This document shows positions 103 to 19,693 of a stretch of 19,698 bases of DNA, in pieces. The first letter of the stretch is position 1. Every line of letters starts with the position of its first letter. This DNA is from Sulfurimonas sp. (GTDB taxonomy: Bacteria > Campylobacterota > Campylobacteria > Campylobacterales > Sulfurimonadaceae): the NCBI GenBank assembly GCA_026988735.1, contig JALSKR010000235.1, forward strand, positions 1 to 19,698, read 5' to 3'. Under the pieces are notes generated by a model. That model saw only the letters and a program-made list of their open reading frames with translations, had not been told where the DNA came from and searched no databases. The position numbers and the translations under genes are program-made.

Positions 103-1140
103 ATGGATGCAAACAAACAAAAATCATTAGACTTGGCAATGAAGCAGATAGATAAAGCTTTCGGAAAAGGCGCATTAATGCGCCTTGGCGACAAAGATAT
201 TGTACCAATACAGTCAATAAGTACAGGTTCTCTAGGGCTAGATTTGGCACTAGGAATAGGTGGTGTGCCACAAGGGAGAGTTGTCGAGATATATGGACCG
301 GAGAGTTCTGGCAAAACAACCTTAGCATTGCAAATTACGGCAGAGTGTCAAAAAAACGGTGGTGTATGTGCTTTTATAGATGCAGAGCATGCGCTTGATG
401 TAGTATATGCAAAAAATCTTGGTGTAGATATTGAAAATCTTTTAGTTTCTCAGCCAGATTACGGCGAGCAAGCATTAGATATAGTTGAAACGATTGCTAG
501 AAGTGGTGCTATTGATTTAATCGTCATAGATTCCGTTGCTGCACTGACACCAAAAGTAGAGCTAGAGGGTGAAATGACTGACCAGCAGGTCGGTGTTCAA
601 GCGCGCTTGATGTCTAAAGCGCTGAGAAAGCTCACAGGTGTTTTGAGTAAAATGAATTGTACGATTATTTTTATTAATCAGATTCGTATGAAAATTGGAA
701 TGATGGGCTATGGTTCTCCTGAGACGACAACAGGCGGAAATGCATTGAAATTTTATGCTTCTGTGCGTATTGATATCCGTCGCATTGCATCATTGAAGCA
801 AGGTGAAAGTCAAATCGGAAACAGAGTTAAAGCAAAAGTTATAAAAAATAAAGTAGCGCCTCCTTTTCGTCAGGCAGAATTTGATATAATGTTCGGTGAA
901 GGAATCTCCAAAGAAGGTGAGCTTGTTGATTATGGTGTAAAACTTGATATTGTAGACAAAAGTGGTTCGTGGTTTTCATATGAAGAAACGAAACTTGGTC
1001 AAGGTCGCGAAAATGTAAAGGCGAAGTTTAAAGAAGATCCAAAACTCGCAGCAGAGATTGAAGACAAGATTAAGCAAGCAATGGGAATAAGCTCTCTTAT
1101 GACGATGGATACTTCTGAAATAGCAGATACTGACGCATAA
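103..1140 (+). CDS. recA: Recombinase RecA
   Basis: RecA forms ATP-dependent filaments on single-stranded DNA in the cytoplasm, pairs homologous strands and triggers LexA-type self-cleavage where that system exists. The 345-residue product has the usual family length. The Walker A motif GPESSGKT is at residues 65-72, a Walker B segment of the [10 protein letters not shown] type lies near residue 140, and the L2/DNA-binding region with FINQIR...GNALKFYAS is intact. The ATG is preceded by AAGTGAG as a weak ribosome site. It is the first gene of a co-directional run, with eno starting 40 bases downstream. recA followed by eno is the order found in Helicobacter and Campylobacter. Nothing is truncated. 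Confidence 0.98.
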
Positions 1141-4182: not shown

Positions 4183-5511
4183 ATGAAAAAATTAAATAAA
4201 TATTTACAATCACATAATGCAAGCGAGATACATCCGGCGGAGATTGCAAAAATTTTAAAAGGGCTGAATGATAAGGATTTTAGTGAGGCAATTAAACTTG
4301 TTCCGAATGATTTAGTAGGTGATGTAGCACTTGCTTTGCCTGACAGATATTTTGATGATGTCGTAGAAAATCTGAGTGTCGATGAACTCTCACACGCAGT
4401 AAGTGAACTGGAATCAGATGACCAATTGGAATTTATGCAAGAACTTGAAGATGTTGATGAACATGTGGCATCTAAAGTTTTCAATACGCTTGATGCTGAA
4501 GATAAGCAAGAAATTTCAAAACTCAAAAAGTACGATGAAGACCAAGCCGGTGCATACATGCAGCTTGAAGTTTTTACGGCAAATGAAGATGAAATAGTTC
4601 AAAATGTTATAAAAAGATTTGCACATCTTAGAAAAGAGAATGAACTTGAGAATGTTCAAAATCTTTTTATAGTCGATAAAAATAACAAACTTTTATATAC
4701 TGTAGGTTTGGATGATTTACTTATTTTTGATTTTTCAAAAACATTGAGAGAAAATATAGAGACAAGTGAAGATTCCTTCGAGCCAAAAGTAGCTAAAGAT
4801 TCCGAAGATATAAAAGCGGTAGTAAATTACTTCAAAGAGTACGATTTGTCTGTTATGCCTGTAGTAAATGATGCAGGAATTTTGGTAGGCCGTATTACAT
4901 CTGACGATATTTATGATATTATTAACGAACATGCAACAGAACAGATGTATAATCTTGCTGGTGTTGATGATGAAGCTGAAGAAGATGAAGATGTACTAAA
5001 AGCAGCAAAAAAACGCGCTACTTGGCTTGGAATTAATCTTGTAACAGCGATTGCAGCTTCATTGGTTATCGGCTTGTTTGCAGATACCATTAATTCGATG
5101 GTAGCTCTTGCCGTTTTAATGCCGATAGTCGCTTCAATGGGAGGCAATGCAGGAACACAGAGTTTGACCGTTGTTGTACGCCAATTAGCACTTGGCGAAA
5201 TATCAAATAGGGATGCCTTTAGAACCATAAAAAAAGAGGTAATGATTTCTTTGATGAATGGTTTGCTTTTCGCTATTGCAATGGGAATCATAGCATGGAT
5301 ATGGTTTCATATACCGCTACTAGGGATGGTTATTGGTTTAAGTATGATTATAAATCTTTTGATGGCAGGTTTTTTTGGAGCAATGATTCCATTGGTACTA
5401 AAAATTTTAGGGATAGATCCTGCCATTGGAAGTACTGTAATCTTAACAACTATAACAGACATTGTAGGCTTTTTTAGCTTTTTAGCTTTAGCCAAATATA
5501 TATTACTTTAA
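4183..5511 (+). CDS. mgtE: Magnesium transporter MgtE
   Basis: MgtE is a dimeric inner-membrane Mg2+ channel gated by cytoplasmic Mg2+. The 442-residue protein shows the full plan: acidic superhelical N domain (about 1-125), two CBS domains (about 130-250), a charged connecting helix (about 255-280) and five membrane helices (about 282-442). The pore signature PIVASMGGNAGTQSLTVVVR occupies about 314-333, and the conserved acidic pore residue is D426 in TTITDIVGFF. The N domain and CBS region are rich in Asp and Glu, as expected for Mg2+ sensing. It starts 18 bases after the barrel gene and is followed 14 bases later by a CNNM/CorC-type gene. I see no Mg2+ riboswitch leader. Confidence 0.95.
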   Translation: MKKLNKYLQSHNASEIHPAEIAKILKGLNDKDFSEAIKLVPNDLVGDVALALPDRYFDDVVENLSVDELSHAVSELESDDQLEFMQELEDVDEHVASKVFNTLDAEDKQEISKLKKYDEDQAGAYMQLEVFTANEDEIVQNVIKRFAHLRKENELENVQNLFIVDKNNKLLYTVGLDDLLIFDFSKTLRENIETSEDSFEPKVAKDSEDIKAVVNYFKEYDLSVMPVVNDAGILVGRITSDDIYDIINEHATEQMYNLAGVDDEAEEDEDVLKAAKKRATWLGINLVTAIAASLVIGLFADTINSMVALAVLMPIVASMGGNAGTQSLTVVVRQLALGEISNRDAFRTIKKEVMISLMNGLLFAIAMGIIAWIWFHIPLLGMVIGLSMIINLLMAGFFGAMIPLVLKILGIDPAIGSTVILTTITDIVGFFSFLALAKYILL

Positions 5512-8648: not shown

Positions 8649-8986
8649 GGAACCGGTACTTTAGTGCCGACTGTTTTAGCTTTCCTGCCACTCTCAGCCC
8701 ACTCTAAAGGATGGGTTCCGAAAAACTGCACTTTCTCGGAACCGGTACTTTAGTGCCGACTGTTTTAGCTTTCCTGCCATTCTTAGCCCACCCTAAAGGA
8801 TGGGTTCCGAAAAACTGCACTTCCTCGGAACTGGTACTTTAGTGCCAGCTAGTGTAGCTTTCCTGCCACTCTCAGCCCAGACTGAAGTCCGGGTTGAGAA
8901 AAACTGCACTTCCTCGGAACCGGTACTTTAGTGCCGGCTAGTGTAACTTTTTTGCCTCTCTCAGCCCAAACTGAAGTTTAGGTTCC
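8649..8986 (+). repeat. Repeat locus A: four tandem 71-bp double-hairpin elements
   Basis: Four copies start at 8649, 8738, 8827 and 8916, exactly 89 bases apart: a 71-base core plus an 18-base linker close to GAAAAACTGCACTTCCTC. Each core opens with an arm of the form GGAACCGGTACTTTAGTGCC and closes with an inverted arm ending GGGTTCC. Either arm can fold by itself (arm 1: CGGTAC, TTTA, GTGCCG), and the two ends can pair with each other. The ~30-base centre reads roughly CTGTTTTAGCTTTCCTGCCACTCTCA in segments. Copy 3 has lost the terminal TTCC, and copy 4 is the most diverged. The array lies upstream of the PAS gene and downstream of the SQR-like gene, both leftward. No open frame persists, because 89 is not a multiple of three. 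REPIN/BIME-like is my best reading; the family is not named from memory. Confidence 0.93.
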
Positions 8987-9138
8987 GAAAAAAATTAATA
9001 ATTTTTAGTATATAGTTGAATCTTGAATTATCGTGTAGATATATGGTATTGTACTCCTTATAAATAAATTAATAAACTAATTTAATTATATTATTTTTAT
9101 ATTATTTTAAATGTTACTTATAGTTACATAACTTATTT
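8987..9138. other. AT-rich gap between repeat locus A and the SQR-like gene
   Basis: About 150 bases, strongly AT-rich and without an open frame. A minus-strand AAGGAG (near 9054) is not followed by a usable start codon. I see no strong terminator for the leftward SQR-like gene, and no repeat arm beyond 8986. With locus A this accounts for the whole 8575-9138 gap. Confidence 0.6.
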
Positions 9139-10320
9139 TCACATACCTGGAATTCTAGGTATTTTACCGAGTTTCGAATTGCGGCAGTAAATGCCCCATC
9201 CTTTTTTTAGCCAGTGTCCGATAATAGGCAAAGGAAGCATGAAAGCACGCTTTTCATCTCTGTAAACAAAGGCTGCCCCATTTCCTGTATCCATGACGCA
9301 TAAAATATTTAAGTGTTCATTATAGCCTTTAAAGTCACTGCCCCCATTGTCTCTTTGCTCAATATTATGTGCTGTATTTTTTGCCATTACTTCTGCAACA
9401 TGACCTTGTTTGGCACGCCAATCATAGCCCTCAAGTGAAGCAACATCACCGATTGCATAAATATTACTCATTGAACCGTTTTCATTGACAACACATGAAT
9501 AGTCATCTGTTTTTATAAAACCTGCCTCATTCAGTGGCAAATCGGAATTTTTGATGACTTGGTGTCCGTCACCGGCAGGAATGAACATGGTAAAATCTGA
9601 TGGAAGTTTTGTGTCATCTTCAAATACAATACCATCTTTTTCAAACTCTTTAATTTTCTTGCCAAAATGTTGTGTAATGCCTAGTTTTTTAAACATAACA
9701 TCCATCATTTTAAGTGCTTGAGGACCCATGCGTTTTCCAGGTTCGGCCATTGGAGCAAAAAAAGTGAGTTCAAAATTGTCTCGTATGCCTTTTTTCTTTA
9801 ACATAGTATGAACATTAAAGAGCAGTTCAAACCCCGGTCCGCCACGAACAGCAGAGCTGTCTTTTGGATTGCCTCCAAATCCCATGCAAATTTTTCCACT
9901 GCCTTTTTCTATGAGTGCATCAAGCGCATCTCTGATTTGCAATGACTGCTCGGGTGCACCACAGATTGAGAGTGTGTTTTGTATGCCGGGTGCTTTCATT
10001 TTTGCAGCACCCATGGCAATAATAAGATAGTCATAATCGCTGATGACACCTGACTTTACAAGTGTGACACTATTTTTTTCTTTTGATATTTCTGCTACTT
10101 CATCAATGATGAGTGTAAAACCATGCGCCCGTTGCAACTCGTTTAAATCAACACAGACATCTTTGAATTCACTCTCATGCGTGGGTACCCAAATAGAAGT
10201 AGGATAAATATAAAAATATTCTCGGTTACTTACAAGTGTAACATCATAGTCCATTCTTTTAAGATAAGATGCCGCATCAACTCCGGCAAATCCGCCACCT
10301 AAAATAAGTACTTTTTTCAT
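9139..10320 (-). CDS. SQR/NDH-2-family FAD flavoprotein, sulfide:quinone oxidoreductase-like
   Basis: A 393-residue FAD-dependent oxidoreductase. The N-terminal dinucleotide fold is MKKVLILGGGFAGVDAASYL (GGGFAG at 8-13), the second FAD-contacting motif IYAIGDVAS is near 287-295, and a C-terminal region with hydrophobic and aromatic residues (about 355-380) could sit on the membrane. Cysteines fall at 120 (ICGAPEQS), 145 and 341 (ILCVMDTGNGAAFVYRD), a spacing reminiscent of the catalytic cysteines of sulfide:quinone oxidoreductases. SQR passes electrons from sulfide to quinone. Sulfur-oxidising Campylobacterota carry several such paralogues. The gene stands alone with its own -10-like TATAAT (minus strand, 10344-10349). 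A related NADH or other quinone reductase cannot be excluded. Confidence 0.75.
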   Translation of the reverse strand: MKKVLILGGGFAGVDAASYLKRMDYDVTLVSNREYFYIYPTSIWVPTHESEFKDVCVDLNELQRAHGFTLIIDEVAEISKEKNSVTLVKSGVISDYDYLIIAMGAAKMKAPGIQNTLSICGAPEQSLQIRDALDALIEKGSGKICMGFGGNPKDSSAVRGGPGFELLFNVHTMLKKKGIRDNFELTFFAPMAEPGKRMGPQALKMMDVMFKKLGITQHFGKKIKEFEKDGIVFEDDTKLPSDFTMFIPAGDGHQVIKNSDLPLNEAGFIKTDDYSCVVNENGSMSNIYAIGDVASLEGYDWRAKQGHVAEVMAKNTAHNIEQRDNGGSDFKGYNEHLNILCVMDTGNGAAFVYRDEKRAFMLPLPIIGHWLKKGWGIYCRNSKLGKIPRIPGM

Positions 10321-10343
10321 ATTTCAGCCTTTTATTGGTTCAA

Positions 10344-10349
10344 ATTATA
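10344..10349 (-). promoter_or_regulatory. Candidate -10 of the SQR-like gene
   Basis: Minus-strand CTTATAATTTG gives a perfect TATAAT 24 bases before the start codon, with AAGG as ribosome site in between. It sits in the 89-base gap after the EamA gene. The -35 region is not distinctive. Confidence 0.5.
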
Positions 10350-10409
10350 AGAAATATTATCTTAATTGATGTTAAAATTAGATTAAATAGGCTATTTTTA
10401 TCGTCAAAT

Positions 10410-11282
10410 TTATTTTTTGTTTATAAAGTATACGGCAATCATGCTGAGTAGTCCACCTATGATTACATGTAACTGTATAGGCTCATCTAAAATTAGCCAG
10501 GCACAAGAGAGGGCAAAAAAGGGGACTAAAAACATAAAAGAGCTTGTTTTCTGACTGCCGAGTTTACCGCTGGCAACAAAGAAAATAGTTGTTGCAAGTG
10601 TTTGCCCTAAAACAGCAAGATAAATCAAAGCTGTCCAAAATTTGACACCTTGAGTAAATACGGCACTTAAATCGGAATCATAGGCATAGAAAAAACTAAA
10701 AAAAGTGGCGATAACGGAAATAAAAAAACTGTAATGCACTGGATGAATATGTTTATGAGAGTGCTGCGCAAGCAAGGTCACACCTGCCCAGATAAGCGCA
10801 CTGAGTAAAAAGTAAATATTTGAACTGTTTAGAAAAAGAGAAAAATCATTCAACTGCAGTAAAATATAGCCACCGACAAGCCCGAGTAAAAGCCCGAAAT
10901 ATTGCCGTGTTGAAAGCCCGCTTTTAAAAAGCACGGCAACAAGTAAAAAGGTCATAATGGGGCTAAATGTTGTAATGATGACACTGCCGGCTCCTGCAAG
11001 ACCGTATTTGATACCTAAAAAAGAAAAAACCATAAAAGCGATGTTTAAAAAGGAACTGCCGAGGATATATTTGAGTGAGCCTCGTGTGAGTGTAATGGGT
11101 GTTTTAAAAAAATAGAGTATAGGTAAAAAAGAGAGGCTCATCAGAAAAAAACGCCAAAATATGACGACATCCATTGGCATTGCAGTGGTAAGAATTTTTA
11201 GTGCAGTCCATCCGCCTCCCCACAGTAGCATAGCCAGTATGAGTAGGTATTCATATGGCTTATCGTCGTTTTTCAAATTCAT
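10410..11282 (-). CDS. EamA/DMT-family transporter
   Basis: A 290-residue, ten-helix membrane protein of the drug/metabolite transporter superfamily, made of two EamA repeats (about 10-140 and 150-288). Family features include LLWGGGWTALKILTTAMPMDVVIFWRF at the start, SVIITTFSPIMTFLLVAVLFKS ending repeat 1, and FMFLVPFFALSCAWLILDEPIQLHVIIGGLLSMIAVYFINKK at the C-terminus. Substrate cannot be predicted; known relatives export amino acids or other metabolites. Its start overlaps the 3' end of the upstream symporter gene by 23 bases, so the two are probably co-transcribed and translationally coupled. The next Met is inside the first membrane helix, which supports the overlapping start. The C-terminal coding region contains a TTACATGTAA palindrome (10463-10472). 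Confidence 0.87.
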   Translation of the reverse strand: MNLKNDDKPYEYLLILAMLLWGGGWTALKILTTAMPMDVVIFWRFFLMSLSFLPILYFFKTPITLTRGSLKYILGSSFLNIAFMVFSFLGIKYGLAGAGSVIITTFSPIMTFLLVAVLFKSGLSTRQYFGLLLGLVGGYILLQLNDFSLFLNSSNIYFLLSALIWAGVTLLAQHSHKHIHPVHYSFFISVIATFFSFFYAYDSDLSAVFTQGVKFWTALIYLAVLGQTLATTIFFVASGKLGSQKTSSFMFLVPFFALSCAWLILDEPIQLHVIIGGLLSMIAVYFINKK

Positions 11283-12471
11283 CTACAATTTTTGTGACAA
11301 TTAAATCAGAGGTAACATTGAGTGAAGTACGACACATATCCAAAATTCTGTCCACGGCTACAATTAGAGCCATATATTCTACAGGTAGTCCAAGTTGGTT
11401 CAATATAATAACCATCATAACAAGTGAAGCACTCGGTAGTGCCGCAACACCGACACTGAGTGCGACAACGGTAATGCCCAAAAGGATTTGATCACCCAAG
11501 CTCAAAGCAACTCCGGCCAAATTTGCGATGTATAAAACGGCAACACTCAAATATGCCGCCGTACCGTCCATAGAAACCGTAGCACCCAAAGGCAGTACAA
11601 AAGAGGCTGTTTTTTTATCTATACCGCCCATTTCCTCCGTTACACGCATACTCACCGGTAATGTTGCTGCAGAAGATGCCGTGGAAAATGCCATAATCGG
11701 TGCTTCTCGAACATCTGAGAGGTAAGCATAAGGGTTTACTTTTGTAAAAAATCGCAGTACCGCAGGCAGGGTGACAAGGGCGTGAAAAATAATGACGCCG
11801 ACAACGAGTAAAACATATTTATAGAGTCCAAATACGACATCAATGCCTTGTTCTGCTATGACATAAGAGATGAGTGAAAAAACACCGATAGGTGTCAGCA
11901 GTATGACCCACTCTGCCATTTTGAGCATGGCTTCGCTGACTGCCGTGAAAAAAGTGCCGAGTATCTCCTTTTGTTTGGGTGCCAGATAGAGTGACGCCAC
12001 ACCAAAAAGAATGGCAAATATAATAATCTGCATCATTTTTCCCTCAGAAAGAGCATGAAAAATATTTGTAGGAATGAAGCTTAAAATCATATTTTCAAAA
12101 GAAAAAGGGGCAAGTGTCGTCGCTTTTGCATAAGCAAGCCCGCTGCTGCTGACATGCTCGCCAATGTGAAAAATATTCATGGCAACGATGGCGGCAACAA
12201 CGGCAAGAGCAGTTGTTAGAATATACAAGCCGATGGTTTTAAGCCCCATGCGTTTTAAGTGCTCAATAGAACCAAGCCCAAGAATGGCAACAAAAATACT
12301 GGCAAAAACAAGGGGTACGACAAGCATTTTTAAAAAATAGACAAAGGCAGTTCCTATCATCTTTTGTTTGAGGGCAAGTTCTGGAAAAAAGATGCCAAAC
12401 AAAACACCTAAAACAATGCCAAAAATGACAAGGGTATTCGTTGTTGCATATTTTTTTATTTTTTTAAGCAT
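11260..12471 (-). CDS. Dicarboxylate/amino acid:cation symporter (DAACS, GltP/DctA type)
   Basis: A 403-residue inner-membrane protein of the SLC1-like family that takes up glutamate, aspartate or C4-dicarboxylates with Na+ or H+. Family marks appear in order: SSAATLPVSMRVTEEMGG (hairpin HP1), SMDGTAAYLSVAVLYIANLAG (the NMDGT motif, with Ser for Asn), a Gly/Ala/Pro-rich HP2 segment and VDRILDMCRTSLNVTSDLIVTKIV, which carries the substrate-binding Asp and Arg of the last helix. The ribosome site AGAGGAAA precedes the ATG. A repeat array fills the upstream gap and the EamA gene overlaps downstream. Whether the substrate is glutamate or a dicarboxylate cannot be settled from these motifs. Confidence 0.9.
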   Translation of the reverse strand: MLKKIKKYATTNTLVIFGIVLGVLFGIFFPELALKQKMIGTAFVYFLKMLVVPLVFASIFVAILGLGSIEHLKRMGLKTIGLYILTTALAVVAAIVAMNIFHIGEHVSSSGLAYAKATTLAPFSFENMILSFIPTNIFHALSEGKMMQIIIFAILFGVASLYLAPKQKEILGTFFTAVSEAMLKMAEWVILLTPIGVFSLISYVIAEQGIDVVFGLYKYVLLVVGVIIFHALVTLPAVLRFFTKVNPYAYLSDVREAPIMAFSTASSAATLPVSMRVTEEMGGIDKKTASFVLPLGATVSMDGTAAYLSVAVLYIANLAGVALSLGDQILLGITVVALSVGVAALPSASLVMMVIILNQLGLPVEYMALIVAVDRILDMCRTSLNVTSDLIVTKIVDEFEKRR

Positions 12472-12506
12472 ATATAATTTCCTCTATTTAAGTGAAGTGG
12501 TTTTTT

Positions 12507-12852
12507 GGAATCGGTACTTCAGTGCCGACTGTTGCAACTTTAAAGCCACTCTCAGCCCGCACTAAAGTACGGGTTCCGAAGAGCTTATTCTTTTTCCTCG
12601 GAATCGGTACTTCAGTGCCGACTGTTGCAATTTTCCTGTCACTCCCAGCCCGCACTAAAGTACGGGTTCCGAAGAGCTTATTCTTTTTCCTCGGAATCGG
12701 TACTTCAGTGCCGACTATTGCAATTTTCCTGTCACTCTCAGCCCGCACTAAAGTACGGGTTCCAAAGAGCTTATTCCTTTTCCTCGGAATCGGTACTTCA
12801 GTGCCGACTATTGCTACTTTTTACCACTCTCAGTTTGTACTAAAGCAGGTTC
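12507..12852 (+). repeat. Repeat locus B: four tandem 71-bp double-hairpin elements, last one running into asnB
   Basis: Copies start at 12507, 12600, 12693 and 12786, every 93 bases: a 71-base core plus a 22-base linker of the GAAGAGCTTATTC..TTTTTCCTC type. Arm 1 is GGAATCGGTACTTCAGTGCC, and arm 2 ends in AAGTACGGGTTCC. The first three copies are nearly identical. The fourth is degenerate in arm 2 (GTACTAAAGCAGGTTC), and that arm overlaps the last 13 bases of asnB. Because 93 is a multiple of three, long open frames cross the array on both strands, but their products are just a 31-residue tandem repeat and not genuine proteins. With the flanking bases this accounts for the 12472-12839 gap. 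Confidence 0.93.
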
Positions 12853-14639
12853 GTCTTTATCCAGTACGATAGTACATAAAGTCCCCATACATGCTGCTTA
12901 AAACTCCCTCTTGATGCCGTGTTTATATATTCGTTTAACTTCTTTTTATGAAACATGCCTGTTTGGGCATTGACCTCTTGAATAAGATTGATTTTGTGAG
13001 AGTTGATGAGGTATTCCATATAAGGATTGGAAAAGCCTTTTTTCTTGCGTGTGAGTATTTTAGCATCAAGTTTATTTGCCATAATCTGCTTTAGTAGTGA
13101 CTTTGTCACACCCTCTTCATAACGCAATTTTGGATCAATGCTAAACACCAAAGATGCAAGTTTATGGTCTAAAAACGGGGTGCGTGATTCTATGGAGTGC
13201 GCCATGCTGACACGGTCGAGTTTTGTTAAGAAATGCTCTGCCTGAAAAATATTGAGGTCAATATAGCTGTACCAAATGCTTTCGTCACTGTGAGTAGAGG
13301 CTTCAAAGCGATTTCTGTAGCTTTGAAGATATTTCAGACTTTCATTGTCTTTGACATTACGACGCATCAGTTGGTTCTTTTGCAGGTCGGTAAACTTGTC
13401 ACCGCTCGTACGAAAAAGAAGCGTGTCATCAAAAATCCGTTTATACCACTCCCATTCTCGATTCATCGAAAAATTGGCACGGAAATATTTTTTGAGCCAG
13501 TTTTTATGTGCTAGATTTGCAGCACCCTCAATGTCAAGATATTCAAAATATTGCCTGTAGCCCAAGAAAAGCTCATCAGCACCCTCACCACTCAACACAA
13601 CTTTGTAACCGTCTTTTTTAATACGCTCAAAAAGCAGGTACAGAGGCACAGCAGCAGGGTCATTGAGCGGTTCATCAAGTGTATCAAGCACTTTGTCGCT
13701 TGCATTTATAAAGTCATTTTCATCTATGGCAAGCTGTTTGTTCTTTACATGTAAGGTCTTAGCACTCAATGCTGCATTTTCACGCTCATCATATTTGGCA
13801 AACTCTTTATATCCCAAAGTATAGGTTTGTAAGTTCATACCGTGTTGTTTGGCATAGTAGTTGATAGTGGCACTGTCTATACCGCCCGAAAGTAGTGAAG
13901 CCATAGGAACATCGGTGTTTAAACGCATCTGTATGGATTCTTCTAAAAGTTTTTCTAAACTCTCAAGTGCTTCTGATTTGTCGTTTATCATATTTGCAGG
14001 AGCCTCAAGCAGGTCAAAATAGCGTTTACATGTAACATGTCCGTCTTTATAGATGAGATACTCTCCCGCAGCGAGTTTTTTGATGCCTTCATAAAAAGTA
14101 TGTGGCGGTGTGGGTGCTAAAAAAGAGAGGTAGGACAAAAGGGCGTCGTTATTGAGTTTACATGTAGATAAAAAAGGCTTGAGTGCTTTTATTTCTGAAG
14201 CAAAAACAAAGCTAGAACCTTCAAGGTAAAAAAGCGGTTTTTTCCCGAGTCTGTCACGAAAAAGATAGAGTGTATCACCATCCATGAGGGCAATAGCAAA
14301 CATGCCACGCAAATGCTTGACAAAATCAACACCCCATTTCAAATAGGCAGCAATGATGACTTCGCTGTCACTTTGTGTTTGGAACTCAAAGTCAAGTTCA
14401 TGTTTGAGTTCTTGAAAATTATATATTTCTCCGTTAAAAGAGAGTAGAATGTTTTTGTGTTTGATTGGCTGATGGCTTCTGTGATGACTGTCTCTTATAG
14501 AGAGCCTTTGATGGGCGAAAAAGAGTCTGCTGTTTTGGATAATGCCACAGTAGTCAGGTCCACGGTGTGACAAAAGAGCAAGGACATTTTTTGCCTTGTT
14601 TTCATTATAATCACCGATGATACCAAAAATTGCACACAT
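12840..14639 (-). CDS. asnB: Asparagine synthetase B, glutamine-hydrolysing
   Basis: A 599-residue enzyme that makes asparagine from aspartate, ATP and glutamine in the cytosol. The N-terminal class II glutaminase domain starts with the nucleophile Cys2 (MCAIFG), followed by LSHRGPD (23-29) and FNGEIYNF (68-75). The synthetase domain has the PPi-loop SGGIDS at 251-256, LSGEGADELFLGY, and the SIESRTPFLDH segment. Length fits stand-alone AsnB. The ATG overlaps the methyltransferase stop by one base (TAATG), so the pair forms an operon. The last residues (KTNLL) and the TAG stop are encoded by a degenerate repeat arm of locus B. The gene holds three TACATGTA palindromes. Some relatives amidate other substrates in polysaccharide or peptide loci, but none is evident here. 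Confidence 0.93.
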   Translation of the reverse strand: MCAIFGIIGDYNENKAKNVLALLSHRGPDYCGIIQNSRLFFAHQRLSIRDSHHRSHQPIKHKNILLSFNGEIYNFQELKHELDFEFQTQSDSEVIIAAYLKWGVDFVKHLRGMFAIALMDGDTLYLFRDRLGKKPLFYLEGSSFVFASEIKALKPFLSTCKLNNDALLSYLSFLAPTPPHTFYEGIKKLAAGEYLIYKDGHVTCKRYFDLLEAPANMINDKSEALESLEKLLEESIQMRLNTDVPMASLLSGGIDSATINYYAKQHGMNLQTYTLGYKEFAKYDERENAALSAKTLHVKNKQLAIDENDFINASDKVLDTLDEPLNDPAAVPLYLLFERIKKDGYKVVLSGEGADELFLGYRQYFEYLDIEGAANLAHKNWLKKYFRANFSMNREWEWYKRIFDDTLLFRTSGDKFTDLQKNQLMRRNVKDNESLKYLQSYRNRFEASTHSDESIWYSYIDLNIFQAEHFLTKLDRVSMAHSIESRTPFLDHKLASLVFSIDPKLRYEEGVTKSLLKQIMANKLDAKILTRKKKGFSNPYMEYLINSHKINLIQEVNAQTGMFHKKKLNEYINTASRGSFKQHVWGLYVLSYWIKTNLL

Positions 14640-15220
14640 TATTTGAAAAATCCTACCGTGATGTCATGTTCAAGGTAGCCCTCAATGAAGCGGATATGCT
14701 TTACATGTAAACTTTTTGCAAGCGATTGGATTGTTTGCATGTTGATATAGTTGTAAATATCACTCTCTTTGTCGCCATACAGGGCATTGAAAATAAAAGC
14801 TTTTTGAGAGGATTCAAAGCAGTTTCGTATAAAAAGTTGTGTCTCAAAAGGGGTTAAAATATTTAAAGCACCACTGCAAATGTAGTAATGGGCAAGGGGA
14901 AGTTTGGCTTTTGTTATGTCGGCATGAAGAATTTCACATGATGTTCTTTGTTGGGCAATGTCACACATCTCTTGGAGCGAATCTATGCCGATATATTTGT
15001 TTACATGTACATCGTTGGTTTGTAAAAATCTGTAAAAATCCCCAAAACCGCAGCCTGCATCGGCAATCACACACTGTGCTAAATCTGTTTCAAGCATTTC
15101 TAATATTTTGTCAAATCGTATGCTTTGATGTGAGCCCGAGGACCAGTGAAGCCCACAAGAAGATACACCGTATTTTTTGAGTGCGGCTTTATAAAATTTT
15201 TCACTGTCAATACGCGGCAT
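14639..15220 (-). CDS. Class I SAM-dependent methyltransferase
   Basis: A 193-residue protein with a Rossmann-type methyltransferase core: motif I VIADAGCGFGDF (about 51-62), the acidic end of beta 2 at YIGIDSLQEMCDIA (about 77-90), and a motif II-like ILHADITKAKLP followed by YYICSGALNIL. The substrate is unknown; the small size and general fold suggest a small-molecule or generic class I enzyme. AAGGAGT is a good ribosome site and a palindromic -10 lies ~24 bases upstream. asnB follows with a one-base overlap, so the two are co-expressed. Two TACATGTA palindromes lie inside the gene, read as LHVK and VHVN. Confidence 0.82.
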   Translation of the reverse strand: MPRIDSEKFYKAALKKYGVSSCGLHWSSGSHQSIRFDKILEMLETDLAQCVIADAGCGFGDFYRFLQTNDVHVNKYIGIDSLQEMCDIAQQRTSCEILHADITKAKLPLAHYYICSGALNILTPFETQLFIRNCFESSQKAFIFNALYGDKESDIYNYINMQTIQSLAKSLHVKHIRFIEGYLEHDITVGFFK

Positions 15221-15241
15221 AAGACTCCTTTTTTATTTTTG

Positions 15242-15255
15242 CTATTATATAATAG
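15242..15255. promoter_or_regulatory. Palindromic, potentially bidirectional -10 element
   Basis: CTATTATATAATAG is a perfect 14-base palindrome that offers TATAAT on both strands (minus 15244-15249, plus 15248-15253). Leftward it is correctly spaced for the methyltransferase-asnB operon. Rightward it would start a transcript that crosses repeat locus C before reaching panE at 15523. It lies between divergent genes. The dual use is inferred. Confidence 0.5.
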
Positions 15256-15267
15256 TTATGTAAAAAA

Positions 15268-15488
15268 GCCGGCACTGAAGTACCGGTTCCGAGAAATTTT
15301 GGAACCCATCCTTTAGGGTGGGCTGAAAGTGGCATGAAAGTAGCAATAGTCGGCACTAAAGTACCGATTCCGAGAAATTTTGGAACCCGTACTTTAGTGC
15401 GGGCTGAGAGTGGCATGAAAGTAGCAATAGTCGGCACTAAAGTACCGATTCCGAGAAAGTTTTCGGAACCCATTCTGCAGTGCGGGCT
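15268..15488 (-). repeat. Repeat locus C: two full elements plus two half elements, inverted orientation
   Basis: The same family as loci A and B, read on the minus strand. From left to right: an isolated arm 1 (15268-15290), a full element (15301-15371), a second full element (15382-15452) and an isolated arm 2 (15465-15488). Linkers are short and alike (GAGAAATTTT twice, GAGAAAGTTTTC once). The full elements are again exactly 71 bases. The 81-base period is a multiple of three, so a long in-frame extension of panE crosses the array; I reject it as coding. The array lies in the divergent promoter region between the methyltransferase and panE genes and fills most of the 302-base gap. Confidence 0.92.
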
Positions 15489-15522
15489 TTGTGTGTTGAA
15501 AATCGAAAAAGAGGAAATAAAT

Positions 15523-16389
15523 ATGAAAATAGCAATAGTCGGTTTGGGCGGTGTCGGCGGGTATTTGGCGGCATCCTTTGCAAAAAGTGGGTTACATGTA
15601 ACGGGTTTTGCACGAGGCAAACATTTAGAGGCGATTCAAAAAGAGGGTATAACAATCAAAGAAGATGAAACACAGTGGAGTATTCCTTTACATGTAAGCA
15701 CACTTGAGGGGGCAGAGGGCTATTTTGATATAGTGATGTTTTGCGTCAAAAGTTATGACTTACAGGCTTCATGTAAAGCCTTAAAAAATCGTATAAATGC
15801 AAACTCGATTCTTCTCTCTTTTTCAAACGGTGTCAATAACGGCGATATGCTTAGAGAATATTGCAACGGTAGAGTCTTGGATGCCTGTATGTATATACTC
15901 GCACACAGAGAAGCCCCAGGAGTGATTCGTAAAAAAGGCAAGGTCTTTGCAGCACTTTTTGGTGGAGAAGATGCAGAGGCAGTTGCTACTGTTGCACAGT
16001 TATTTACACAAGCTGCCTTGCGTTATAAAACTCCGCAAAATATTAAAGAAGCGTTGTACAAAAAGTATATATTCATTGCTGCGTTTGCAACACTTACTAC
16101 TTACTACAATACAACAATAGGGGAAATTTATGAAAAACATTATGATGAAGCAAAAAAGCTTTTAAGAGAAATTGCCGAGTTTGCCAAAGAGAGTGAGGGG
16201 TTAGAGCTGTTTGATGAGGTACAAAAGTCTTTGGAAACGGCAAGAAAAGTGCCTTACGATTCTACAACCTCAATGTGGCTTGATTTTAAAAACGGTAAAA
16301 AAACTGAGCTTGAAAGTTTAAGTGGATATGTTCAAAAACCTTTTATGCAAAAACTCTATAATGAGTTAAAAAAGAGAGAAAAAGAATGA
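15523..16389 (+). CDS. panE: 2-dehydropantoate 2-reductase family protein (ApbA/PanE)
   Basis: A 288-residue NADPH-dependent reductase of the ketopantoate reductase family; PanE reduces 2-dehydropantoate to pantoate for coenzyme A synthesis. The start at 15523 is supported by GAGGAAAT at 15511-15518 and by the family N-terminus MKIAIVGLGGVGGYLA with the GxGGVGG nucleotide motif at 7-13. Further marks are VMFCVKSYD, SFSNGVNN, KKYIFIAAFATLTTYYNTTIGEI (catalytic Lys region) and STTSMWLDFKNGKKTELESLSG near the C-terminus. An in-frame extension upstream is only translated repeat DNA. The first 20 bases match the repeat centre at 19 positions. Its stop overlaps msrA by ATGA. Paralogues with other substrates exist, so PanE activity itself is not assured. 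Confidence 0.82.
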   Translation: MKIAIVGLGGVGGYLAASFAKSGLHVTGFARGKHLEAIQKEGITIKEDETQWSIPLHVSTLEGAEGYFDIVMFCVKSYDLQASCKALKNRINANSILLSFSNGVNNGDMLREYCNGRVLDACMYILAHREAPGVIRKKGKVFAALFGGEDAEAVATVAQLFTQAALRYKTPQNIKEALYKKYIFIAAFATLTTYYNTTIGEIYEKHYDEAKKLLREIAEFAKESEGLELFDEVQKSLETARKVPYDSTTSMWLDFKNGKKTELESLSGYVQKPFMQKLYNELKKREKE

Positions 16390-16913
16390 AAAAAGAGCGA
16401 ATTGTACTGGGTGGCGGATGTTTTTGGTGTATAGAAGCAGTTTTCAGAAATGTCAAAGGCGTATTCTCGGTAGTGAGTGGTTATGCCGGAGGTGCAAGAG
16501 CAAATCCTTCTTATGAAAATGTTTGCTCGGGGGCTACTGGGCATGCTGAAATTGTCGATATTATTTATGACGCAGATGTTATCAGTCTAAGTGAAATTTT
16601 GGATATATTTTTTGAAATTCATGACCCGACAACACTCAATGCTCAAGGTGCAGACAAAGGAACACAGTACCGTTCTGTAATTTATTACGGCGATGAAGAA
16701 CAAAAAAGAGTGATAGAGGAGTCCATAGCAAAACATCAACACGATTTTACAGACAAAATTGTAACTGAGCTAAGCTCTCTGCCTGAGGTTTATCCAGCTG
16801 AGGCGTATCATCAAAATTATTATAATCTGAATGCTTCACAAGGCTATTGTCAGATGGTTATTGCACCAAAACTACAAAAATTTATGACGAAGTTTTCTCA
16901 TGTATTATCGTAA
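16386..16913 (+). CDS. msrA: Peptide-methionine (S)-S-oxide reductase MsrA
   Basis: MsrA repairs the S-diastereomer of oxidised methionine, using thioredoxin-type reductants. The 175-residue single-domain protein has GGGCFWCIEAVF at 9-20 with catalytic Cys12, then VVSGYAGG, HAEIVDIIYD, GADKGTQYRSVIYY and YPAEAYHQNYY in the normal order. No MsrB domain is fused, and only Cys15 near the start and a few downstream cysteines could resolve the sulfenic acid. The start overlaps the panE stop (ATGA), and the flavoprotein gene follows after 41 bases, so oxidant repair and a flavin reductase are grouped together. Confidence 0.95.
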   Translation: MKKERIVLGGGCFWCIEAVFRNVKGVFSVVSGYAGGARANPSYENVCSGATGHAEIVDIIYDADVISLSEILDIFFEIHDPTTLNAQGADKGTQYRSVIYYGDEEQKRVIEESIAKHQHDFTDKIVTELSSLPEVYPAEAYHQNYYNLNASQGYCQMVIAPKLQKFMTKFSHVLS

Positions 16914-16954
16914 ATGTGTTACACTACATGTAGATTATTTAAGAGGTGATTTTT

Positions 16955-17920
16955 ATGGAAAAAATTTATAATTTAGCAATTATAGGTGCCGGACCTGCAG
17001 GGCTTGCCGCTGCAGTTGAGAGTTATTTGCAGGGTATAGACGATATTGTCGTGTTAGAAAAAGATGTCAATCATAACTCCACAATACGAAAATATTATAA
17101 AGACAACAAACGCGTCGACCTTGAATGGAAAGGACAAAAAGTTGAACTTAACGGTCGTATCGTCTTTGTAGATGGAACAAAAGAATCGACATTGGATTTA
17201 TTTGATGAGCTAATACAACATCATAATATTGAGCTAAAAACACAGGTTGAAGTCACTTCTATAGAAAAAGAGGATGAGTATTTCAGTGTTCATATGGCTG
17301 GCAGTAGTATAAAAGCCAAACGGGTTGTCGTAACCATAGGGCGTATGGGTAAACCAAATAAACCAAGCTATAAAATACCTCCAAGCATTAGAAAGAAAAT
17401 AAATTATACGCTTGATGAGTGTCAAGACGGTGAAAAAGTGCTTATTGTCGGCGGTGGTGATAGTGCCGTAGAGTATGCTGTGGACTTAGTCGGTAGAAAT
17501 GAAGTGGCAATCTGCTACAGAAGAGAAACTTTTCGCCGTGCAAATCCTTTAAATCAAAGAAATATTGCCAATGCAATTGCACATAATGAAGTGCGACCGA
17601 TTTTAGGGATGAATATTGAGTGTCTTGAAGATGATAACGGCAGAGTGAAAGTTCTTTTTAAAGAGATAGAACCCGAAACATTTGACAGAGTGATTTATGC
17701 TATCGGCGGGACAACACCAAGTGCATTTTTAGCAAGTTCGGGCATAGAAGAAGCAGATGGAAAACCCAAATATGACGAACATTATGAGACAAATATTAAT
17801 GGTCTTTTTGTCGCGGGGGATATAACACAAGAGAGCGGTGGCAGTATAGCTCTTGGACTTAACCAAGGTTATGAAATCGCCTGTTATATAAAAGGCGGAT
17901 GTAAAAACTGTAAAGATTAA
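16955..17920 (+). CDS. FqrB/TrxR2-like NAD(P)H flavoprotein lacking the TrxR redox motif
   Basis: A 321-residue FAD/NAD(P)H oxidoreductase with a thioredoxin reductase fold: FAD motif GAGPAG at 11-16, NAD(P)H motif VGGGDSAVEYA at 165-175 and FVAGDI at 285-290. The CxxC of thioredoxin reductase, expected near residue 135-150, is absent. The N-terminal stretch IRKYYKDNKRVD and the RMGKPNKPSYKIP region recall Helicobacter TrxR2/FqrB, an NADPH:flavodoxin/quinone reductase, and more distantly YpdA. The C-terminus ends in CKNC (316-319), an unusual tail pair. The start is the ATG at 16955 after AAGAGGTG; the GTG at 16946 lies inside that ribosome site. The stop directly abuts a broken repeat element. 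Confidence 0.78.
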   Translation: MEKIYNLAIIGAGPAGLAAAVESYLQGIDDIVVLEKDVNHNSTIRKYYKDNKRVDLEWKGQKVELNGRIVFVDGTKESTLDLFDELIQHHNIELKTQVEVTSIEKEDEYFSVHMAGSSIKAKRVVVTIGRMGKPNKPSYKIPPSIRKKINYTLDECQDGEKVLIVGGGDSAVEYAVDLVGRNEVAICYRRETFRRANPLNQRNIANAIAHNEVRPILGMNIECLEDDNGRVKVLFKEIEPETFDRVIYAIGGTTPSAFLASSGIEEADGKPKYDEHYETNINGLFVAGDITQESGGSIALGLNQGYEIACYIKGGCKNCKD

Positions 17921-18059
17921 TGCCATAGAGTGACAAAAAGTAGCAATAGTCGGCACTAAAGTACCGATTCCGAGGAGATGTTGTTTTCTTTGGAACCCGT
18001 ACTTTCTATGCTAAAGTATGACTTAGAAAAAAACTAAATTTTTTTCTGTAGTGCGGACT
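17921..18059 (-). repeat. Repeat locus D: broken copies of the 71-bp element
   Basis: Inverted orientation. It starts with a partial element, centre plus arm 1 (17921-17971), cut off exactly at the stop codon of the flavoprotein gene. After a 20-base linker comes arm 2 (GGAACCCGTACTTT at 17992-18005), which is interrupted by about 35 bases of foreign AT-rich sequence before it resumes as CTGTAGTGCGGACT (about 18046-18059). The locus fills the whole gap between convergent genes. Confidence 0.8.
18000..18047. terminator. Two hairpins between convergent genes
   Basis: TACTTT (18000-18005) pairs with AAAGTA (18013-18018). Directly after, AGAAAAAAA (18025-18033) pairs with TTTTTTTCT (18039-18047) across a 5-base loop. 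The second stem has an A tract on one arm and a T tract on the other, so it resembles a weak bidirectional terminator. It lies inside the disrupted arm of repeat locus D. GC content of the stems is low, so termination is uncertain. Confidence 0.4.
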
Positions 18060-18067
18060 TTGTATCT

Positions 18068-18433
18068 TTATACATTATCCCGTGTATCAGATAAAATGGC
18101 AGGGTCTTTTTCGCTTATAATCCCTTCAGGGGTGTCAAGTATGAGTTCAAGCTCACAATGAAGGTACTCTGAAGTAGAAATCGGCGTGAAAGTACTGTCT
18201 TGGAATGCTGCCTTTTTAGCTCCGATGATTATAGCGTCTGCTAAAGAGAGTGTTTTTGTGCTAGTGTAAGAACCTCTAAGTTCATTATTTATATAAAGAT
18301 TTGTTGTTGTTTTTATGTTTTGATGGAGTAAAGGGTGTTCATTTAAAAGAGCTTGTTTGTCGATGGAATTTTGTGCTTGAAGGACTTCTTGTATAGAATC
18401 GCGTGAGAGTTGCAGTAAAACCGAACGACTCAT
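18068..18433 (-). CDS. AMMECR1-domain-like protein
   Basis: A 121-residue soluble protein. The region from about 45 to 108 matches the AMMECR1 pattern: NLYINNELRGSYTS, then TLSLADAIIIGAKKAAFQDSTFTPIS and YLHCELELILDTPEGI. The LRGC motif, the most conserved part of the family, reads LRGS here (52-55), so the conserved cysteine is lost, and the protein is shorter than the usual ~180-200 residues. The function of the family is not established. It begins in an ATGA overlap with the upstream antiporter stop, so the two are made together. A diverged AMMECR1 protein is my best reading. Confidence 0.6.
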   Translation of the reverse strand: MSRSVLLQLSRDSIQEVLQAQNSIDKQALLNEHPLLHQNIKTTTNLYINNELRGSYTSTKTLSLADAIIIGAKKAAFQDSTFTPISTSEYLHCELELILDTPEGIISEKDPAILSDTRDNV

Positions 18434-19596
18434 TCCACACTCCTTTTCTCTTGTTTCGCTTTATAGATATTTACCAATTTTATGACAATCATAACACTTA
18501 TTACCTGAAACAGAGCCGCGAGAATAAAAGCATAGTAATGGAGTTTATCTATTGAATTAGCCGTATAGGCAAGTGTTGCCATTGCGATGAGAAGCGTCAG
18601 CGGCATAGAGTGCGAGAGTCCAAAAAGAATGGTATCTACAAGTCCGAGTTCTTTGAGAAAGACCAAAGAAGCAAAAAGACGCATAAAAACCATAACAAGC
18701 GTAATAATCAACGCTTCTTTAATGAGTCCGTTTATCAACAGTGCATCAAGATGAAAAGAGCTTCCTATGTGAATAAAAAAGATAGGAATGAGAAATCCGA
18801 AACCAAAAGAGGCAAGTTTTTCTGGCAGTTCGTGTTTGTGTTCAAAAAAAGTCGGGATGAAAATACCCGCTAAAAAGGCACCAAAAGCAAGTTCAAGATG
18901 TAAAAAAAGCATAGTACCGATGAGTAAAAAAAAGATGCCCATAGAGAGTCGAATGTCTTGTTCTTTGTTGTCATCGTGTGGCATTAGCGCTATGGCAACC
19001 TTTGGAAACCACCAAAACAGAAGCTGCATGGAACGAAAAAGAATGAACATAAAAAGTAAAAATGCCAAAAGTGCTATAATAGTTTGAAAAAGTCCTAGCC
19101 CAAAGCCGGACTTTAAAGCAGCAGAAGTGATGGTTAAAATGACGATACTCGCAACTTCTCCTATACCGCCGACGGTCATTGAAAGATTTAGCCAAGGGGT
19201 CTTTCCATACTCTTTTGAAAGAGAAGCAACCAGTCCGATGGAAATAAGTGGGAGTAAAACCATAAATATTTTCCCTGATTCAAACTGTATAGAAAAAGCG
19301 ACTGAAAAAGTATAGAGTAGTATCAAATATACAAGGGCTTTTTTCATAATACTTGCAGGTGTTTTGAGTACATTTTTTAAATTAATCTCCGTACCGGCAA
19401 TAAACATGAGATATAAAAATCCAAATTCAGCAACTAGATTAAACAGATGTTCATCATGCAAAAAGCCGACATAGCCTAAAAGTGAACCTAAAATAATTTC
19501 AATAGGAGTAGTAGGCAAGCGTAAAAATTTGGCAAGAAAAGGAGAAAATATAATGATGAGCGATATTGTAATGATGAGGGTTATATTGTCATTCAT
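18430..19596 (-). CDS. CPA2-family cation/proton antiporter (KefB/GerN type membrane domain)
   Basis: A 388-residue, roughly 12-helix membrane protein of the Na+/H+ exchanger superfamily (CPA2). Family features include LRLPTTPIEIILGSLLGYVGFL in the first third, EFGFLYLMFIAGTEINLKNV, MTVGGIGEVASIVILTITSAALKSG, ELAFGAFLAGIFIPTFFEHKHELPEKLASFGFGFLIPIFFIHIGSSF and FGLSHSMPLTLLIAMATLAY. No C-terminal RCK/TrkA-N domain is present, so nucleotide gating of the KefB kind is not encoded here. The ion (Na+ or K+) cannot be told. AAGGAG (minus strand, 19605-19610) is the ribosome site, and the AMMECR1-like gene is coupled downstream. Confidence 0.88.
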   Translation of the reverse strand: MNDNITLIITISLIIIFSPFLAKFLRLPTTPIEIILGSLLGYVGFLHDEHLFNLVAEFGFLYLMFIAGTEINLKNVLKTPASIMKKALVYLILLYTFSVAFSIQFESGKIFMVLLPLISIGLVASLSKEYGKTPWLNLSMTVGGIGEVASIVILTITSAALKSGFGLGLFQTIIALLAFLLFMFILFRSMQLLFWWFPKVAIALMPHDDNKEQDIRLSMGIFFLLIGTMLFLHLELAFGAFLAGIFIPTFFEHKHELPEKLASFGFGFLIPIFFIHIGSSFHLDALLINGLIKEALIITLVMVFMRLFASLVFLKELGLVDTILFGLSHSMPLTLLIAMATLAYTANSIDKLHYYAFILAALFQVISVMIVIKLVNIYKAKQEKRSVE

Positions 19597-19622
19597 TATT
19601 ATTTCTCCTTTGTAATTTTTTT

Positions 19623-19693
19623 GGAACCGGTACTTTAGTGCCGGCTATTGCAACTTTCTTGCCACTCTCAGCCCGGACTGAAGTCCGGGTTCC
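19623..19693 (+). repeat. Repeat locus E: one complete 71-bp double-hairpin element
   Basis: A single, well-preserved copy just upstream of the antiporter gene. Arm 1 is GGAACCGGTACTTTAGTGCC, and arm 2 contains the perfect stem CCCGGACT / AGTCCGGG. The window ends five bases later, so it may be the first unit of a longer array; the last bases (AAGAG) resemble the start of a linker. Confidence 0.9.

Follow-up and report, generated by a model that had tools for sequence, protein, structure and literature searches.

The window analysed here, a stretch of 19,698 nucleotides that forms contig C235 of a marine Sulfurimonas metagenome-assembled genome (MAG; G000, 1.86 Mb in 291 contigs, 80% complete), holds 10 complete and 5 partial copies of a 71-nt repeat, gathered in five clusters that all lie outside genes. 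Each copy is made of two inverted hairpins of one design, with a GGAA foot, a 7-bp stem carrying a T-G wobble, a TTYA loop and usually CT after the stem. We conclude that this element is very probably a REPIN, an inverted pair of repetitive extragenic palindromic (REP) sequences that share one asymmetric design and flank a semi-conserved centre, dispersed in Sulfurimonas by a REP-associated tyrosine transposase (RAYT; a Y1/HUH protein of ~169 aa, mostly present once per genome) that acts in trans. The copies in the window are as follows.

8649..8986, + strand: locus A, four tandem units (8649-8719, 8738-8808, 8827-8897, 8916-8986), period 89 nt
12507..12853, + strand: locus B, three full units (12507-12577, 12600-12670, 12693-12763), period 93 nt, and a degenerate fourth (12786-12853)
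15267..15488, - strand: locus C, a half unit (15267-15290), two full units (15301-15371, 15382-15452; period 81 nt) and a decayed arm (15465-15488)
17945..17971, - strand: locus D, left arm (half unit)
17992..18059, + strand: locus D, right REP arm whose loop is interrupted by a nested element; the foot is at 17992-17995, 17996-18002 and 18051-18057 form the stem, and CT follows
18005..18048, + strand: 44-nt element (TCTATGCTAAAG...TTTTTTTCTG) nested in the REP loop, its position interpreted as between T13 and Y14
19623..19693, + strand: locus E, a single full unit, 5 nt before the contig end

A first-pass annotation had reported ten essentially complete copies, a degenerate fourth copy at locus B and several half or broken copies, spread together over five intergenic loci, and all of these were located. 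The copies that it called broken are real partial copies, save that one of them, the interrupted arm at locus D, is a right arm split by a 44-nt repeat that it had missed. The period of the arrays is specific to the locus, and locus C sits between divergent genes. Given its distance from the contig end, the copy at locus E probably marks an assembly break at the repeat. A search with the 8649 copy recovered the nine further complete copies at E values of 1.3e-13 to 2.0e-28, far beyond chance; the 8827 copy has an altered final arm end (GGTTGA). No Rfam family reached its gathering score in the window. Reading frames at 12492-12872 and 15207-15620 of the window, and at 4544-4828 of locus L066, consist mostly of repeat copies (peptides GTxVPx and ARTKVRVP); they look spurious and may get annotated as proteins.

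Both stems covary. Across an alignment of 33 copies (10 from the window, 23 from relatives), 92.0% of the 462 cells of the two 7-bp stems are paired, compared with just 20-35% in slid control structures. Double changes occur at 6 pairs and in 37 cells, a level reached in 0 of 500 shuffles, and the number of further pair types was matched in 7 of 500. The annotation had described the arms as inverted copies of one asymmetric hairpin with a fixed T-G wobble, and the larger alignment agrees: pair 9-18 is T-G in 33/33 left arms, and at the matching position of the right arm C and A stand on the + strand in 29/33 (T-G on the complement), the remaining four having standard pairs.

The element is abundant in several genomes. 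Seven were counted with a covariance model (E<=0.01, best 150 candidates scored per genome, large counts being lower bounds), giving 76 matches in the window's MAG, at least 144 in S. hydrogeniphila (G117), at least 149 in S. sediminis (G138), at least 158 in a related MAG (G151), 9 in G053, 2 in G039 and 0 in G178. Under stricter filters, 12 of 135 genomes of the genus had a match at E<=1e-4, so the count across genome and relatives that the annotation had proposed came out in its favour. A plain DNA query matched 5 of 200 genomes in a sample of the family, including the window's own, with G039 matched by a partial copy only. Arms are mostly intergenic, at 70/75 and 48/54 in 400-kb stretches of G117 and G138. 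A REPIN is expected to occur in about 100 or more copies, mainly between genes.

The window's MAG carries two recA genes (window 103-1140 and G000:C240:5542-6576; proteins 96% identical) and one gene spacer in two versions (window 12460-12880 and L086 3500-3800). Therefore, it is probably a mixture of two related strains or species, and the window's strain is not assignable with certainty.

The RAYT gene and the GGAA foot

PF01797 was found in 105 of the 200 family genomes and is thus so common that its bare presence says little; it is the place of the gene that tells. A PF01797 gene lies directly among the elements in G151, G117 and G138, and the three genes share one gene neighbourhood. In G151, a left half-element (positions 1-28) stands at the 3′ end of the 169-aa Y1 gene and a right half-element (48-71) lies on the 5′ side, and the RAYT of G117 is flanked in the same manner, left and right half-elements bounding the gene in two of the three relatives. 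These two loci are L066 and L067. The gene of G138 retains the left half-element, and on its opposite side lies a REPIN split by the loop element. Cognate REPs thereby flank the RAYT in three of the five RAYT-bearing carriers inspected (G151, G117 and G138, not G053 and G170; the partial RAYT of G218 lies outside the inspected set). The first-pass annotation had proposed a search for a RAYT gene flanked by single arms; such genes are present in relatives, and none was found in the window's own MAG.

The RAYT proteins exceed the PF01797 cut-off, and their best NCBIfam match is REP_Tyr_transpos (NF047646; E 1e-19 to 6e-21). Profile matches include IS200 transposase structures (E 6e-9) and the E. 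coli TnpAREP chain 4er8 (E 9e-6), and several of 120 listed database homologues are named RayT. The proteins carry the motifs NHIH and YIKNNP, and by protein search the RAYT of G138 is identical to that of Sulfurimonas sediminis, which has the locus tag FJR45_04300. This clade occurs in 25 of the 135 genus genomes, with a single match in 23 of the 25; a Y1 HUH protein usually present in single copy is characteristic of REPIN/RAYT systems. Moreover, a RAYT was found in 6/12 REPIN carriers and in 19/123 other genomes (Fisher p 0.01, kinship uncorrected).

The hairpins beside RAYT genes were surveyed with foot and loop left free, taking all 7-bp hairpins with a 4-nt loop within 400 nt of the gene. 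The set comprised 32 RAYT loci, 15 from genus genomes and 17 as the best of 80 named contigs, 26 of them Campylobacterota by title or genus; L078 and L110 are one genome entered twice, with the same hairpin, leaving 31 distinct loci. The survey returned 109 hairpins, whereas shuffled sequence gave 5.4. The stem has GGAA in front of it at 14/32 loci, the next commonest feet at 3 and GTAG at 2, and the loops included TTTA (15 loci), TTCA (9) and TAAA, the complement of TTTA (9). The GGAA foot and the TTYA loop thus recur near related RAYTs. No hairpin of the surveyed form was present at 8/32 loci, some of which show GGAA or GGAG ahead of bulged hairpins by eye.

Within the family itself, the GGAA foot is kept in 165-172 of 172 distinct arms, depending on position, and the arm profile reads A4 172, T12 172, T13 170, Y14 90 T/82 C, A15 172, C23 168 and T24 142; since these arms were gathered with the family model, part of this conservation stems from their selection. 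The foot is not the GTAG/GTGG tetranucleotide, and the annotation had rightly suspected a lineage without GTAG. This lowers the likelihood of membership in the GTAG superfamily; it does not lower that of an association with a RAYT. In PMC8266576, a Marinomonas REP needs T12, T13 and A15 but accepts any base at position 14, and T12, T13 and A15 of the Sulfurimonas arms fit this T12-T13-N14-A15 requirement. The same paper describes use of CT and GTAG by the RAYT. Its guide-sequence rule, by which GTAG selects CT, is not simply transferable to GGAA, and CT therefore stays a candidate only.

Site occupancy and alternative explanations

Orthologous sites were compared between 400-kb stretches of G117 and G138, which hold 37 and 24 element clusters. 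From G117, 27 clusters were placeable in G138, 18 occupied and 9 without an element above threshold, and 10 were unplaceable; from G138, 19 were placeable in G117, 2 of them empty, and 5 were unplaceable. On alignment of these 11 'empty' sites, 6 had no trace of the element, including the sites of three full elements (G117 215941, G117 314659 and G138 195708), and 1 was ambiguous. Array length differs between the species as well. Candidate empty sites of the kind for which the annotation had asked are thus present, with insertion boundaries that are not sharp enough to read. At G117 251305-251371 (joined stretch), two foot-to-foot arms correspond to one hybrid hairpin in G138, which looks like a loop-to-loop deletion between arms.

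Several observations weigh against a REPIN dispersed by this RAYT. When four unsplit strands were folded as single-stranded DNA, three paired arm to arm and one gave two separate hairpins, with fold z-scores of -0.95, -1.63, -2.94 and -3.62; the short REP hairpins stand in inverted pairs, as in a REPIN, and the single-strand folds are mixed. Exact REPIN insertion ends, sought at the 11 candidate sites, were recovered at none, and 4/11 retain an arm that is decayed or hybrid, or else carry a different REP-like hairpin. The S. sediminis RAYT is without the right half-element on its 5′ side, and in the carriers G053 and G170 the RAYT lies beside GGAA-footed hairpins with other stems. The NCBIfam scores (70.6-74.8 bits) fall below the cut-off of 80. 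Among the 12 element-bearing genomes, 6 have no detected RAYT; four of these are 70-80% complete, and the other two are G039 (100% complete, 2 matches) and G127 (99%, 1 match). The window's MAG itself gave neither a PF01797 nor a RAYT match in a whole-MAG search, and 18 of the 26 window open reading frames, which were scanned, include no transposase, as the annotation had said of the window. Neither the RAYT nor one neighbour gene was found in the window's genome, and at ~80% completeness the assembly may have missed the RAYT locus.

A very improbable alternative is that the doublet is a host regulatory element under selection, a terminator or a pair of mRNA-stabilising hairpins, with the RAYT as an incidental neighbour. 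The mainly intergenic arms would suit such a role, as would the 18/27 placed sites that are occupied in both species. However, GGAA lies outside the stem and is nonetheless conserved, the RAYT is bounded by half-elements, other GGAA hairpins flank divergent RAYTs, and array length and some sites vary between species. An ordinary DDE-type miniature inverted-repeat transposable element (MITE), with GGAACC/GGTTCC as terminal inverted repeats, is less credible still: the ends are inverted and some copies lie within CCATTAAGTTAAG inverted repeats, 110-111 nt from start to start, as a MITE-like composite, yet each arm is a covarying stem with a conserved loop and a fixed wobble, and the Y1 gene is flanked by half-elements. 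The CCATTAAGTTAAG inverted repeats surround REPIN-like doublets at G138 195686/195796, 299980/300091 and 343837/343983 (joined coordinates) and at L085 1395/1506, with a spacing of ~110 nt, which rises to 146 where the doublet holds a loop insert. Copies inside this longer element with terminal inverted repeats may hitchhike, a further point against RAYT-driven dispersal.

Under the REPIN reading, the RAYT would bind the GGAA-footed strand of the single-stranded hairpin and would discriminate it from its complement via the foot, the T-G wobble and the loop. It would cut close to the foot, or else at the CT that is conserved past the stem, moving or copying doublets, and loci may afterwards grow locally into arrays with locus-specific spacers. 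A second element, of 44-45 nt, inserts into the REP loop; where it lies and how precisely are shown by the data, and it keeps one orientation wherever the foot is recognisable.

A nested element in the REP loop

We consider the REPIN reading right, the foot being unusual and so the host phylum. The loop element is more surprising than these. A pattern for it, allowing up to 2 mismatches, matched in 13 of the 135 genus genomes (G117 23, G138 22, G151 11, G000 7, G218 7, others 1-4). At least three single matches are doubtful, that of G174 being without the element's left part and those of G195 and G223 lying outside a GGAA hairpin. The reversed pattern gave 0 matches in the listed genomes, and a stricter pattern matched 2 of 398 order genomes, both Sulfurimonas, in a sample that excluded G117, G138 and G151.

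We collected 48 distinct copies of 44-45 nt (window 18005-18048, L068, L086, L088 and L193-L276). Their flanks pair at 6.52 of 7 bases on average, compared with 5.14 (maximum 5.54) after permutation, in a frame that was widened after the outcome of a narrower one was known; at least 6/7 flanking bases are paired in 43/48 copies (permuted mean 19, maximum 28) and fewer in the remaining 5. The host stems include the CGGTAC, CCGTAC, CCCAGAC, GCAAGGT, CCTAGGT and GTGTGGC types, several of them unrelated. The foot on the expected side is exactly GGAA in 33/48 copies and GGAT in 4, with neither in 11, so a single orientation holds for these 37. In the 48 copies, columns 16-17 are TT in at least 90%. 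A three-helix reading pairs 91.5% of 956 cells, with double changes in 101 cells (0/500 shuffles), the number of pairs with double changes being reached in 30/500. In the first inner hairpin, 3/5 pairs have changes on both sides and the lowest pair is open in 21/48, and the basal-stem counts include G053-type rows that are off by one column.

Among 13 copies in the two stretches of G117 and G138, 12 have a mapped interval in the other species, several of these intervals being rearranged or of zero length, and the element was present in 0/12. The same REP was recovered with and without the element in five pairs (G138 292598, 260355, 200160 and 202558; G117 342489; joined coordinates), the element of 202558 being missing in both G117 and G151. 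In 260355 and 342489, base 14 (C) still stands on the right-hand side of the insert, which places the insertion point at T13|Y14; 292598 is compatible with this, and base 14 differs in 200160 and 202558. No target duplication was seen in these orthologue pairs. Elements of the IS200/IS605 family characteristically insert in one orientation, 3′ of a short fixed target that is not duplicated, and the loop element shows this behaviour. Taken together, these features give it the look of a REP parasite that homes to the loop. At L067 1776-3185, a DDE insertion sequence (PF01609) with CATAAGTATCTACACAACT ends and a ACTGAAGT duplication also sits in a REP loop.

What moves the loop element may be considered in three ways. 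One tentative but plausible account is that it is moved by an unrelated REP-targeting insertion sequence (IS), like IS1397 or IS621. IS that target REPs are known (PMC1525189), and the DDE insertion sequence described above occupies a REP loop of G117 with its ACTGAAGT duplication. However, the loop element has no such duplication and is unlike the observed IS in sequence. Moreover, in 800 kb of two carriers every left end has a right end within 60 nt, and no longer element with these ends is present there.

A more doubtful account makes it a coding-free mobile parasite of REPs that inserts as a single strand into the TT|YA loop of GGAA hairpins, whatever their stem, and is moved by the REP's own RAYT. 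A RAYT was found in 7/13 loop-element carriers and in 18/122 other genomes (p 0.003, kinship uncorrected), and the one PF01797 match of S. hydrogeniphila, which has 23 copies by pattern, is its RAYT. This association and this lone gene make the RAYT a candidate mover and are no proof.

It is unlikely that the 44-nt sequence is instead immobile, an ancestral, Y-shaped form of the REP from which the short REPs arose by precise deletion. The element is readable as a stem that encloses two hairpins, the full basal stem appearing in 1/2 folded copies, and precise loss would yield identical orthologue pairs. Yet at one site S. sediminis has the element and both S. hydrogeniphila and G151 are without it, the same module lies inside hairpins whose stems are of several unrelated kinds, the 12 copies for which an interval could be mapped all lack a counterpart across the two species, and with 23 copies in G117, beside at least 144 REPIN matches, it is the minority form.

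Comparison with known systems

The RAYT/REPIN architecture named by the first-pass annotation (TnpAREP-REP, BIME; Pseudomonas fluorescens and E. coli) is supported by copy number, covariation and the RAYT among the elements of three relatives. It shares with the Sulfurimonas element inverted REP doublets, high copy number, intergenic place and arrays, together with a REP-flanked Y1 gene, a strand-asymmetric stem and CT past the hairpin. Sulfurimonas differs in its GGAA rather than GT[AG]G foot, its 7-bp stem with a T-G wobble, its Campylobacterota host and its RAYT, which has NHIH and YIKNNP and in which A, L or V mostly replaces the Q after W. The Marinomonas group 3 REPtron Mb has the loop T12 T13 N14 A15 at equal distance from the foot and CT among its cleavage sites, but a GTAG foot, a 5-bp stem separated by 2 nt and a RAYT of another group (PMC8266576).

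HuH subclass 2.6 and class 3 RAYT-like proteins are, in PMC6006769, likewise encoded by genes flanked by hairpins without GT[AG]G that have copies elsewhere in the genome. However, subclass 2.6 is mostly from Bacteroidetes, class 3 has a CnGA foot, and their Y motifs (YIH[QN]NP and YV..EQ) differ from YIKNNP. Motif comparison, as opposed to a tree, suggests that the Sulfurimonas NHIH and YIKNNP resemble subclass 2.4 (YIxNNP). The same paper assigns GT[AG]G feet to subclasses 2.2, 2.4, 2.5, 2.7 and 2.8, whereas subclass 2.6 and class 3 have atypical ones. Epsilonproteobacteria are mentioned there under subclass 2.1, in which it found no REPs, and among groups with other co-occurring subclasses. 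The CGTC-tagged REPs of PMC3733652 are also tagged palindromes, and one carrier, Sulfurovum NBC37-1, is a Campylobacterota relative, but their foot is CGTC and no transposase is linked to them. A table in PMC12306157 gives a value of 931 for S. gotlandica, which we read as tool-predicted REPs; the extract of that paper does not mention RAYT. IS1397, ISKpn1, IS621 and ISPpu9 share REPs as preferred insertion sites (PMC1525189), but are full insertion sequences, whereas the loop element is 44-45 nt long, with no coding capacity and no target duplication. Among the titles and abstracts of a part of the literature matches, none links RAYT and REPs in Sulfurimonas or reports the loop element.

Tying REPs that have the uncommon GGAA foot to a RAYT clade of their own in Campylobacterota makes foot recognition comparable across independent solutions. 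Moreover, the TTNA loop rule, which was derived in vitro for the Marinomonas RAYT, is present in nearly all of the 172 natural arms. How REPs spread turns on the open question of DNA insertion by RAYTs in living genomes, for which the loop element offers a natural test. If its movement by the REP's own RAYT were true, one domesticated transposase would serve two nested repeat populations.

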